Shown here piece by piece: positions 5,929-27,033 of a stretch of 32,826 bases of DNA. Origin of the DNA: a virus; the IMG/VR virus record IMGVR_UViG_3300020196_000142, positions 1 through 32,826 of that record; one strand, 5' to 3'. The position numbers were made by a program, and so were the translations under genes. Position 1 is the stretch's first letter. Each line of letters begins with the position of its first letter. Below the pieces are notes generated by a model. That model made no database searches. It saw nothing but the letters and a program-made list of their open reading frames with translations, and was not told the DNA's origin.

Positions 5929-5977
5929 TTAAAGTTTTGTTTGTGTATGTCTGATAATTAAAGTGGAGGTACCTGTT

Positions 5978-6277
5978 ATGAGTAAGGCTCAGGAGGCGCG
6001 TGAGATGGCAGATAGCTTCAACCAACCAGAACATAAAGCCAAGCGTATGGCTGAGTTGGTTAGTCACATTGTGGATATTCTGATTGAAGATGCCTTGGCA
6101 GCGGCCAAGCGTGGTCTTTACGACATGTCTTACAAGATGGAAGAAATGGAAAAAGAGCGTATCCGCCTTGCCAACCTTCAAGAAGCAGATATCACTAAAG
6201 AAGTTATTGAGAAGATGAATCAGCTTGGTTTTCAAGCAGGCTTTAGTCGTCCCTATATTAACGTCTCATGGAAATAA
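5978..6277 (+). CDS. Conserved-type helical small protein (99 aa)
   Basis: Begins MSKAQEAREMADSF. I chose the ATG at 5978, which has GGAGG at the right distance, over the in-frame GTG at 5963. The protein is mainly helical with heptad-like charged segments (YDMSYKMEEMEKERIRLANL), ending in a short strand-like GFQAGFSRPYINVSW. No family recognised. It directly follows the portal and overlaps the next start by 10 bases, so it belongs to the same operon; a small structural accessory or scaffolding role is possible but unproven. Confidence 0.6.
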   Translation: MSKAQEAREMADSFNQPEHKAKRMAELVSHIVDILIEDALAAAKRGLYDMSYKMEEMEKERIRLANLQEADITKEVIEKMNQLGFQAGFSRPYINVSWK

Positions 6278-24375: not shown

Positions 24376-24441
24376 ATGTTTATTAGTTTAATTTTTATCT
24401 TATTAATGACCTATATAATTTCTAGAACTACCCAACACTAA
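24376..24441 (+). CDS. Tiny membrane peptide (21 aa)
   Basis: Begins MFISLIFILLMTYIIS and ends RTTQH. A perfect AAGGAG site precedes the ATG. Nearly all hydrophobic, enough for one short transmembrane helix. It follows the glycine-rich adhesin by 25 bases. The ribosome site supports translation, but at 21 codons chance cannot be excluded. Confidence 0.4.
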   Translation: MFISLIFILLMTYIISRTTQH

Positions 24442-24461
24442 AGTTTTTACATTAACTGACG

Positions 24462-24503
24462 ATATGTTTTGTGGCATCTATATGCGGATGCCACAAAACA
24501 TAT
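24462..24503. promoter_or_regulatory. 17-bp perfect hairpin just before a ribosome site
   Basis: ATATGTTTTGTGGCATC (24462-24478) pairs perfectly with GATGCCACAAAACATAT (24487-24503), with an eight-base loop TATATGCG. Two bases later comes the AGGAGG site of the next gene. There is no T-run, so it is not a typical terminator. Candidate RNase III processing site, 5' stabiliser, weak terminator or translational switch. Confidence 0.7.
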
Positions 24504-24516
24504 TTAGGAGGCAATT

Positions 24517-24705
24517 ATGAAAATGCTTGATATGATGATGGCTTACGAAAACAACGAACTTAATATGGAGCAAACCGTAGAGTTGTTTCAGAATCTTATT
24601 GACAGTGGATTGATTTTTAGTCTACAAGGTAACTATATGAGAGTGGCGAGGGATTTGGTAGAAGGTGGCCTGATTGACTTAACAACCGCTGATATTGAGG
24701 AGTAA
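24517..24705 (+). CDS. DUF7417-like small phage protein (62 aa)
   Basis: The pattern ELNMEQTVELFQNLIDSGL then FSLQGNYMRVARDLVEGGLI fits the small phage family with the E-x-ELFQ-x-LIDxG...LQGxYxRxAxxLIxxG signature. Mostly three helices. It is widespread in tailed phages; its function is not known to me. It has a strong AGGAGG ribosome site immediately after the 17-bp hairpin and begins a new run of small genes. Confidence 0.65.
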   Translation: MKMLDMMMAYENNELNMEQTVELFQNLIDSGLIFSLQGNYMRVARDLVEGGLIDLTTADIEE

Positions 24706-24709
24706 GAGC

Positions 24710-24841
24710 ATGATTATGGAAATGTTTGTTAACAGAATCTTAGCAGAAACACTCACGTTAAGGGATTTTGTGGTTGGCGAGAGCTATGAAAAAGATGCTG
24801 TTGCTACCTACGAAGCAGTTGTTATGGGTACAATTTTATGA
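24710..24841 (+). CDS. Small hypothetical protein (43 aa)
   Basis: Begins MIMEMFVNRILAETLTLRDF and ends ATYEAVVMGTIL. Starts four bases after the previous stop, near GAGTAAGAG, and ends in an ATGA overlap with the next gene. Both junctions support a coupled operon gene. No family recognised. Confidence 0.5.
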   Translation: MIMEMFVNRILAETLTLRDFVVGESYEKDAVATYEAVVMGTIL

Positions 24842-25002
24842 ATAATAAACACGGCGATGAGGAAGACCGTTTGCCCAAAACATTAAACGAAGCTTTAATG
24901 TTTTTGACCTACCACGCAGGAATGTTTGCCTTAAAAGTGGCAGCAATAGTTGCTGTGTGGGTTATTTTGGCAGATTTCTTAAGAAACCTTATGATGCCGT
25001 AA
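24838..25002 (+). CDS. Small membrane protein (54 aa)
   Basis: A polar N-terminus (MNNKHGDEEDRLPKTLNE) then one hydrophobic span (MFALKVAAIVAVWVILADFL) and a short basic end. Coupled by ATGA to the 43-aa gene. It is the first of three membrane-associated or exported proteins before RmlA. Function unknown. Confidence 0.5.
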   Translation: MNNKHGDEEDRLPKTLNEALMFLTYHAGMFALKVAAIVAVWVILADFLRNLMMP

Positions 25003-25011
25003 GGAGTTAAT

Positions 25012-25350
25012 ATGGTTAACATTATTGCCATAGCTGTTATTTTGACTGGGGGGGCTTCGCTCTCAGCAGCGGTAAAAAAACCACTGCCCGTTGGTAGCTG
25101 TATTGCTGACAAGCTTCTTTGTAACGCAAACGACCCTAACCTCGACCCATGGCAAGTTGAATGTTACAACGGAGCTTTGTTAAAAATTGAAGCAATCGGT
25201 AAACATTCTTACAAAACAAGTTGCGTTGAGGAAACCTTTCATTGTAAAGGGTTTGTTTCTTTTAGGGACGCAAGAGATTTTTATTTTCAAATTCAGTGTC
25301 CATCCAGAGTTATGAAACTACATAACTCAATTCCTTTGCCGAGAGACTAG
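25012..25350 (+). CDS. Exported Cys-rich protein (112 aa)
   Basis: The N-terminus MVNIIAIAVILTGGASLSAA is a signal-peptide-like segment with possible cleavage after SAA. The mature part has six Cys (VGSC, LLCN, VECYNG, KTSC, FHCKG, IQCPS), suitable for three disulfides in an oxidising compartment. No lipobox is evident. AAGGAG precedes the ATG. The G7 tract at 25048-25054 lies inside the signal-peptide codons. No family recognised; an exported phage protein beside a sugar-nucleotide enzyme could act at the host surface, but that is conjecture. Confidence 0.6.
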   Translation: MVNIIAIAVILTGGASLSAAVKKPLPVGSCIADKLLCNANDPNLDPWQVECYNGALLKIEAIGKHSYKTSCVEETFHCKGFVSFRDARDFYFQIQCPSRVMKLHNSIPLPRD

Positions 25351-25352
25351 TT

Positions 25353-25535
25353 ATGAAACAAAATCTCATTTTGCTTTTGTGCGTTGTAGCCTTGCTTGCG
25401 ACACTTTCTTACGTTACTAAGACTTTGCTTGACTTTCATAAAATTGCAATTCAAGTTTATTGTGAGCAGCGGCTTGATTTCGATAAGTGCTCTAAAGAGT
25501 TTAAAGACAAAACCTACAAGCTGAAGAGAAAGTAA
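25353..25535 (+). CDS. Small membrane-anchored protein (60 aa)
   Basis: An N-terminal hydrophobic span ([17 protein letters not shown]), then a charged, probably helical tail containing [16 protein letters not shown] with two Cys, ending KLKRK. It is probably an inner-membrane protein with its tail outside the cytoplasm. Its TAA shares a base with the rmlA ATG (TAATG), so rmlA is likely coupled to it. Function unknown; the size and layout would also suit a lysis accessory protein. Confidence 0.5.
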
Positions 25536-26410
25536 TGCGTAAGGGAATTATTTTGGCGGGCGGCTCCGGAACCAGACTTCACCCACTAACTAAAGTTATT
25601 TCAAAGCAACTTCTGCCTGTCTACGACAAGCCAATGGTCTACTATCCGTTGGCAACCCTTATGTTGGCAGGCATAAAGGACATTTTAGTTATTTCAACTC
25701 CGCATGACTTGCCCTTATTTCAAAAGCTGCTCGACGATGGTTCCCAGTGGGGAATCTCTATTAGTTATGCAGAACAGCCTTCGCCAGACGGTCTGGCACA
25801 GGCATTTATTTTGGGTGCTGATTTTGTTGGAAATAATGACAGCTGTTTGATTCTTGGCGACAACATTTTTTATGGACAGAGTTTTCAAGAAAATCTTAAA
25901 ACAGCTTCTAGCCGCCCTAACGGTGCGACTGTTTTTGGTTACCATGTAAAAGACCCGCAAAGATATGGAGTTGTATCTTTTGACCCAAACAATCAAGTTG
26001 TTGATATTATTGAAAAGCCAACAAAACCAAAAAGCAATTACGCTGTAACTGGTTTATATTTTTATGATAATGATGTTATAGAAATAGCAAAATCACTAAA
26101 GCCAAGCTCTCGTGGGGAGCTAGAAATTACCGATGTTAACGCTGTTTACCTGTCTAATAAAAAACTGCATGTAGAAAAGCTTGGACGAGGAATCGCTTGG
26201 TTGGATATGGGTACCCACGAAAGCTTGTTGGATGCTTCAAATTTTATTGAAAGTTTGGAGAATCGGCAGGGTTTAAAGATTTGCTGCCCAGAAGAAATTG
26301 CGCTGCTAAATGGATGGATAGGAAAAGAGCAAATAGAGAAAATAGCCAAATTGATGAAAAATTCTCAATATGGTCAATATCTTTTAGGTCTTATTGAAAA
26401 TAAATTATAA
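25535..26410 (+). CDS. rmlA: Glucose-1-phosphate thymidylyltransferase
   Basis: Makes dTDP-glucose from dTTP and glucose-1-phosphate, the first step of dTDP-rhamnose and related sugars. The 291-aa length matches bacterial RmlA (about 290). Key segments are all present: [13 protein letters not shown] (8-20) for nucleotide binding, [16 protein letters not shown] (24-39), [21 protein letters not shown] with the metal-binding Asp, [27 protein letters not shown] and [11 protein letters not shown]. It looks functional. No rmlB, rmlC or rmlD is in the window, so the product probably feeds host or distant phage enzymes. It is coupled to a small membrane protein and lies between two fibre clusters. 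Confidence 0.93.
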
Positions 26411-26434: not shown

Positions 26435-26611
26435 TTGAACTACAAAACTTTAAGAGAACAACTAGTTATAACAAAAGAAGGCGACGACTATGTCGCCACC
26501 CACCCTTCTCACCCTACATTATCTGTCTGTGCACCTACATTGGAAGAAGCTGAATATGAAATCTTGCGCTATGTCATTTATCTTTGCCTATTAAATAATG
26601 TGAAGAGCTAA
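26435..26611 (+). CDS. Small hypothetical protein (58 aa, TTG start)
   Basis: Begins (L/M)NYKTLREQLVITKEGD at TTG 26435 after GGGGGTG, then DYVATHPSHPTLSVCAPTLE and a final helix (AEYEILRYVIYLCLLNN). The strand-strand-helix layout with THPSHPTL and a TLEEAE helix resembles a HicB-like small fold in outline; that resemblance is loose and no HicA toxin is visible. It ends inside a perfect hairpin. Confidence 0.45.
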   Translation: MNYKTLREQLVITKEGDDYVATHPSHPTLSVCAPTLEEAEYEILRYVIYLCLLNNVKS

Positions 26612-26623
26612 TCTCTTCACATT
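26597..26623. terminator. Hairpin between convergent genes
   Basis: AATGTGAAGAG (26597-26607) pairs perfectly with CTCTTCACATT (26613-26623), 11 bp with a five-base loop. It sits at the stops of the converging 58-aa and 138-aa genes. The minus-strand side is followed by TTATTTAATAG, mildly T-rich; the plus side is not. Probably a weak bidirectional terminator. Confidence 0.5.
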
Positions 26624-27033
26624 AAAGCACTTCCTGTGTAGATCTCGTATTCTTTTCCTAGCAGTTGGCAATTATTCTTGCCCTTCATAAGGTTCTCTCT
26701 CGTTTCTTTCGATGCGAGGCTGTCGTCTTTCACTTCAATAAAAGTTTTAACAAATATCATTGACTTTCCGTTTTCCGTAGGATTAATTCCGCCAGCAATA
26801 ATCAAACTCGCGCCATCAGACAAAGTTCTGTCTTGTAGGCTACTCTTAAGGGTAGCAAGAATATTTGGTGGTGCCAGCAACATAGTTTGAGCAAAATTAA
26901 TGTTATTGGTAACTTCTAAAATTTCAGTTGTACAGCTTTGAAGCTCTTGAGGGCTTAGGGTTTTACTAATAGACAGCACACTGACAACAATAACAGCCAA
27001 ACCACCAAGACCTAATACGATATTTTTATTCAC
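26617..27033 (-). CDS. Membrane-anchored hypothetical protein (138 aa)
   Basis: I start at the GTG at 27033, with CAGGAG at good distance, giving (V/M)NKNIVLGLGGLAVIVVSVL; the longer version from 27060 has no ribosome site. One N-terminal transmembrane span, then an extracytoplasmic domain with two Cys (LQSCTTEI and NNCQLLG). The middle includes SLIIAGGINPTENGKSMIFV. No family recognised. Overlaps the stop of the 85-aa gene and ends in the 26597-26623 hairpin. Confidence 0.6.
   Translation of the reverse strand: MNKNIVLGLGGLAVIVVSVLSISKTLSPQELQSCTTEILEVTNNINFAQTMLLAPPNILATLKSSLQDRTLSDGASLIIAGGINPTENGKSMIFVKTFIEVKDDSLASKETRENLMKGKNNCQLLGKEYEIYTGSALM

Follow-up and report, generated by a model that had tools for sequence, protein, structure and literature searches.

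The window analysed here, 32,826 bases long, makes up an entire IMG/VR record. Downstream of a fibre gene it carries a run of + strand genes that opens with a 62-aa DUF7417 protein (24517..24705; PF24192, phrog_3908, 55 bits against a cut-off of 27), the first gene of the predicted transcript. The run continues with small genes (24710..25535; ORFs ending at 24841, 25002, 25350 and 25535) and is closed by an rmlA-like nucleotidyltransferase (25535..26410; PF00483). Between the fibre gene and the promoter described below lies a 21-aa hydrophobic ORF, MFISLIFILLMTYIISRTTQH (24376..24441, +). Similar DUF7417 clusters are found in four close relatives, G001 (162,747 bases), G002 (28,790), G003 (35,230) and G005 (110,367). 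A 319-aa gene takes the place of rmlA in three relatives (L002 7062-8018, L003 7044-8003, L004 7005-7964); it gave no PHROGs match at 0.01, and we presume a likeness to deoxyhypusine synthase. A 300-aa gene just before the terminase gene (L044 18299-19201, L056 5617-6519) presumably resembles class II fructose-1,6-bisphosphatase (GlpX).

Directly in front of the DUF7417 gene is a hairpin at 24462-24503, the reality of which is certain. Its arms, ATATGTTTTGTGGCATC on the left (24462..24478) and GATGCCACAAAACATAT on the right (24487..24503), are 17 nt each, 100% complementary and 8 nt apart, and enclose the loop TATATGCG (24479..24486), which shrinks to 6 nt if a U-G pair closes it. Counting a G-U pair at either end, the predicted RNA stem is 19 bp with the 6-nt loop. 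The sole spacer between the hairpin and the ribosome-binding site AGGAGG (24506-24511, +) is TT (24504-24505), and the ATG follows at 24517. An earlier note on this DNA had described a perfect 17-bp stem with a two-base gap to AGGAGG, and both the coordinates and the pairing (17/17) proved exact. That note also considered a chance origin very unlikely, in agreement with the statistics: in 120 simulated windows (60 order-1 and 60 order-3 Markov) perfect stems reached 12 bp at most, against 17 in the real one, and the 101-nt fold around the hairpin reached -32.2 kcal/mol against -16.0 (sd 2.8) for shuffles (z -5.7; 0/200 as good). In a survey of 367,213 bases (the window and 18 pieces of the four relatives; stems of at least 11 bp, loops of 3-15) it was the longest of 10 perfect hairpins.

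No T-tract lies 3' of the hairpin on either strand, as the earlier note had observed, and a terminator scan of the + strand listed no site between 24084 and 25307. An intrinsic terminator is ruled out by the missing T-tract. A known RNA family was likewise rejected, Rfam giving no gathering-score match within the window. Within the window the palindrome is present a single time, and when viral contigs were scanned for its exact pattern, a search from which records very near the window may be omitted, no second copy was returned. A further perfect hairpin, of 12 bp, is situated at 26596-26624, where two convergent genes meet; its G002 version (L052 7767-7799) has 14 bp and one double-sided change, and this is perhaps a two-way transcript end that does without a T-tract.

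A match to a sigma28 (FliA)-type promoter, TAAAGTTT-N11-GACGATAT, spans 24439-24465, and its -10 box extends into the left arm of the hairpin. The sigma28 consensus printed in PMC2859248 is TAAAGTTT-N11-GCCGATAA. The -35 octamer of the window, TAAAGTTT (24439..24446, +), agrees with it at 8/8 positions, and the -10 octamer, GACGATAT (24458..24465, +), located 11 nt after the -35, at 6/8 with the CGATA core kept. The final four bases of the -10 octamer are the first four of the left arm. From these features and the coding-strand enrichment described below, a sigma28-type promoter very probably overlaps the hairpin. In E. coli aer the mapped start lies 6 bp below the -10 octamer (PMC2859248), and the same rule places the predicted transcript start of the window at G 24471 (+), within the left arm. 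With +1 at this position, the left arm would begin with the second half of the -10 box, run through the discriminator and end in the first transcribed bases. According to the earlier note, the hairpin divides the fibre transcript from that of the small genes and rmlA. A boundary is indeed predicted at this point, but it would be set by the promoter overlapping the 5' arm, which had been overlooked.

The window is not alone in carrying such promoters. Genes of at least 40 aa were called by a simple ORF-plus-SD rule in the window and the 18 pieces of its four relatives, and 425 upstream regions of up to 80 nt were searched for dyads (spaced 5-mer pairs, gaps of 8-20) with no motif assumed. The top dyad was TAAAG-N16-CGATA, in 18/425 regions; a second one, CTTGACTTT...GGTAAA, turned out to represent the final codons of the gene upstream and was discarded as a promoter element. 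The pattern TAAAGTTT-N10..12-GCCGATAA at up to two mismatches was present in 22/425 regions (9 with one, 13 with two), a count in which promoters ahead of ORFs under 40 aa, among them those at the DUF7417 cluster in G001, G005 and G003, do not figure. The expected number was 0.1 (mean of 20 simulations); when the letters of the consensus were permuted, 100 such patterns averaged 0.08 sites, the highest count being 4. On the reverse strand, none of the 425 regions held a site with fewer than four mismatches. By record, the sites were distributed as 12/189 in G001, 6/119 in G005, 2/43 in the window, 2/33 in G002 and 0/41 in G003. A second sigma28-type promoter of the window, TAAAGTTT-N12-TCTGATAA (5930..5957, +), precedes the gene at 5978 and has no long hairpin. 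On the - strand, TAAAGTTT-N11-TCCGAATA (16380-16354; three mismatches), followed by AGGAGG and ATG, is likely to be a further one.

Many sigma28-type promoters of the group share an extended start sequence, GATAAGnYTTATG (in G001 and G005, e.g. L028 107 and L029 139). An exact scan for this extended motif found 10 stretches in 8 viral contigs, and a search of genome_contigs gave 5 MAG contigs, three of whose genomes hold 5, 6 and 9 sites. Two large viral records picked via the extended motif, G007 (IMGVR 3300023440_000002) and G008 (3300031952_000002), covered by L067, L072, L081 and L082, have 9 and 10 strict-pattern sites, and none of the reversed pattern; the pieces of them that were searched had no blastn match among annotated phages.

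Sequences upstream of DUF7417 in the relatives have an element TAAAGTT...GACGATA in common. At the DUF7417 cluster itself, a sigma28-type promoter is present in 4/4 close relatives, with two mismatches in G001, G003 and G005 and one in G002. It precedes a short hydrophobic ORF ahead of DUF7417 in G001, G005 and G003, and lies one gene further up in G002. By eye, a similar short ORF is placed after the promoter in the relatives and before it in the window, so that the promoter of the window now stands directly before DUF7417; also by eye, the -35 box opens with the three bases of the 21-aa ORF's stop codon. The window hairpin is absent from all four close relatives, and selection on it therefore cannot be shown. 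It is absent, too, from the 160 nt upstream of DUF7417 in 14 less closely related matches (L005, L010-L022); sigma28 sites in these stretches have 5-7 mismatches at best. One of these distant matches, L016 (67% GC), has a 13-bp perfect hairpin some 80-110 nt upstream. G001 contains a 14-bp perfect hairpin directly before an SD (L043 9502-9536), with no sigma28-type promoter in the sequence examined; followed through their genes, neither this hairpin nor one in G005 (L059) had a homologue among the pieces compared.

The alignment with the relatives bears on how the palindrome arose. The window aligns with G001 and G005 through GACGATA-G-TTT-TGG, the likeness ending at about +4; the right arm is unmatched, its counterpart being absent from both. 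Among 27 promoters with up to three mismatches, the distance from octamer to start codon, a measure that cannot exceed about 53 in 80-nt upstream regions, has a median of 21 nt; that of the window is the longest, at 51, and the others fall between 18 and 39. Subtracting the loop and right arm (25 nt) leaves 26 nt, inside the range of the others. On the simplest history, the right arm would have come from copying the promoter start, inverted, to a point immediately downstream. The longest hairpin would overlap one of the 27 promoters by chance in about 0.4% of cases, a post hoc estimate that allows 60 nt per promoter.

The consequences for the transcript were explored by folding. In the RNA predicted to start at 24471, GUGGCAUC pairs with GAUGCCAC and is followed by AAAACAUAUUU and AGGAGG, the SD being 0.66 and the AUG 0.41 unpaired. 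The stem stands at the extreme 5' end and has an energy of -15.5 kcal/mol, with 1/300 shuffles as low. Given +1 at 24471, the prediction thus shows a paired 5' end before a free SD, the arrangement expected of a 5'-terminal stem-loop. Because the arm is perfect, any other +1 within it would also leave the first base paired. In read-through RNA folded from three start points, the SD was 0.63, 0.26 and 0.60 unpaired and the AUG 0.04, 0.42 and 0.46.

Related leaders were folded from +1 for 11 hand-chosen promoters, five at the DUF7417 cluster and a further six that have long leaders or palindromes. In 5/11 the energy was reached by at most 3.4% of shuffles (the window, G001, G005 and G003 at the cluster, and G001 at 36.5 kb); in 6/11 it was not. 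In the first of two G001/G005 leader pairs, a stem of 13 pairs has two double and four one-sided changes with pairing always kept; in the second, a stem of 6 pairs has two double changes, again with pairing kept. This level of covariation was reached by 118/500 and 129/500 shuffles for pairs 1 and 2, with two sequences in each, and slid versions still had 31-50% and 17-33% of their cells paired, the structures being derived from the same sequences. The retained pairing is accordingly no more than suggestive of covariation. In G001 and G005 the 13-bp stems leave the start codon buried even in RNA starting at +1 (AUG 0.00; SD 0.50 and 0.37) and so would not be the same device as that of the window. 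The 6-bp stem appears in folds from -15 to +45, and is absent from the lowest-energy folds of 50-nt transcripts from +1.

Which sigma factor would read these promoters was approached through searches for a phage-encoded one. Sigma domains PF04542 and PF04545 (E 0.001) and TIGR02937 (E 10) were found in none of the window, G001, G002, G003 and G005, records that may be fragments and in which a divergent sigma factor could escape such profiles. The sigma-like protein of Myxococcus phage Mx1, used as a query without a positive control, had no match in the same five records. A three-row profile of this protein and its G007 and G008 relatives matched only G007 and G008, and among 1546 reading frames of the window and its relatives' pieces its best E was 0.68. 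In G007 and G008 alike, a helicase-like ORF is followed by one of about 340 aa whose match to sigma region 2 is weak and falls short of the Pfam cut-off. The order of these two ORFs is as in Mx1, which has 0 strict-pattern promoter sites. With no sigma factor recognised in the window group, host FliA is the first choice as reader, and it likely reads the promoters of this group; an unrecognised phage sigma factor is possible. A terminase tblastn against the annotated phage collection returned only Myxococcus phage Mx1, at 29% identity over 62% of TerL, and a terminase profile run against genome_contigs yielded 57 stretches fitting the peptide pattern and 0 confirmed relatives. Among the matches listed in the open-licence literature, no title or abstract start had phages using sigma28/FliA promoters as its subject.

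Taken together, these results lead us to favour, with moderate confidence, a promoter start made palindromic, its main effect being to furnish a 5'-terminal stem-loop stabiliser. A sigma28 (FliA)-type promoter would drive the gene run from DUF7417 to rmlA, and inverted copying of its start region just downstream would have joined start and leader in one palindrome. RNA polymerase would start inside the left arm, at about 24471, and the mRNA would begin with a blunt 5' stem-loop of 8-9 bp, after which come A/U-rich sequence and an AGGAGG that is mostly open. The first nucleotide, paired at any +1 in the left arm, would protect the 5' end from decay, whereas read-through RNA from the fibre gene would carry the whole 19-bp stem instead. 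Against this explanation, the -10 box of the window is off consensus at two positions. A 5' stabiliser for the DUF7417 gene, which the earlier note had already suggested, fits and is still the best functional reading.

The same note had suggested an RNase III cleavage site, which is possible, the full stem being present only in RNA that reads through from the fibre gene. RNase III processing sites are found between genes in T7, and cleavage of the 19-bp stem of read-through fibre RNA would similarly separate two messages. The stem in such RNA is long, perfect and far stabler than in shuffles, and no terminator-like site is listed between the fibre gene and the cluster. We nevertheless consider this account unlikely: the predicted promoter would already start a separate transcript, which would hold only the inner 8-9 bp, and the stem is kept in 0/4 relatives.

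The palindrome could be a neutral by-product: a recent strand switch during replication would have produced an inverted copy of the left arm, and no function would yet have been acquired. The arms are perfectly identical, including pairs useless to the promoter transcript, and no copy was found in other records. The outer 9-10 pairs of the stem have no role in a transcript from 24471, so one-step copying fits as well as any function. However, such a stem beside a promoter and an SD would be unlikely to remain without effect, and this reading, too, appears rather improbable. Under the preferred explanation, a single inverted copying step could have made the promoter and a protective leader together.

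A further alternative takes its model from phage T4. For the leaders of T4 gene e (lysozyme) and I-TevI, PMC3014915 describes a hairpin whose 5' arm harbours the promoter, so that the full stem forms only in the longer RNA. The window promoter occupies the 5' arm in the same layout as that source gives, and the hairpin could accordingly silence translation of read-through RNA while promoter-started RNA escapes. Consistent with such a switch, the AUG is 0.04 unpaired in the longest read-through RNA folded, from 24350, against 0.41 from +1, and the SD is 0.26 unpaired from 24400 against 0.66 from +1. Conversely, the SD of the window falls beyond the stem, and folds of the three read-through lengths give conflicting values for both SD and AUG; SD sequestration in the window is not consistently predicted. 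The switch is on balance an improbable account of this hairpin. Its layout is, as modelled, clearer in G002, where the spacer CACCTCC pairs with the SD in read-through RNA (SD 0.00 against 0.16 from +1). Four sigma28-type promoters have CCTCC at the spacer or -10 (L003 5701, L004 5853, L027 112, L028 107). In the predicted read-through RNA of L003, L027 and L028 this CCTCC pairs with the gene's own SD, which may possibly amount to a switch of the gene e type made from the promoter itself. In L004 it pairs with another GGAGG followed by a T-run, and is terminator-like.

Operators commonly sit over -10 and +1, and the palindrome covers both, as would suit a regulator that binds it as DNA and controls the promoter. 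At two other promoters a short palindrome likewise has its centre near +1 (GACTTATGTAAGTC, TGTCTTATGTAAGACA), but these are mostly the common start sequence TTATGTAA, and with the palindrome present once in the window and in no other copy by exact scan of viral contigs, an operator is very unlikely.

On a wider scale, we tentatively propose that in a group of large tailed phages the host flagellar sigma may read a whole class of promoters, which would tie the expression of small genes during infection to the motility programme of the host, and that in the window one such start has become palindromic, so that every transcript 5' end would be paired. If true, phage genes would be wired into the host flagellar regulon in a group where no phage sigma factor has been recognised.

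The flagellar-type promoter and the leader stem-loop are each known, and are here merged in one palindrome. With the T7 RNase III sites the window shares a long intergenic stem and possibly a polycistronic phage message; the window stem differs in being perfect, in overlapping a promoter and in being found in one record. In contrast to T4 gene e and I-TevI, neither SD nor AUG is part of the stem in the window, and read-through RNA is not consistently predicted to be silenced. The table in PMC4183435 gives the -10 of E. coli fliC as GACGATAA. The promoters of E. coli aer, tar and fliC, to the extent that they are set out in the sources cited, have the same TAAAGTTT-N11-GCCGATAA layout as the window, with the GACGATA core common to fliC. 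Unlike these, the window promoter is phage-borne, precedes small genes of mostly unassigned function and has a sigma factor that is predicted as its reader, and its +1 region is inside a long palindrome. PMC3997798 cites Emory, Bouvet and Belasco (1992) and Bricker and Belasco (1999) on 5'-terminal stem-loops of the ompA and papA type, which reportedly stabilise the mRNAs that carry them, and the preferred explanation has its closest counterpart in these. As in these, the mRNA of the window is predicted to start paired before a mostly open SD; in contrast to them, the left arm of its stem doubles as promoter DNA, and the stabilising effect is a predicted one.
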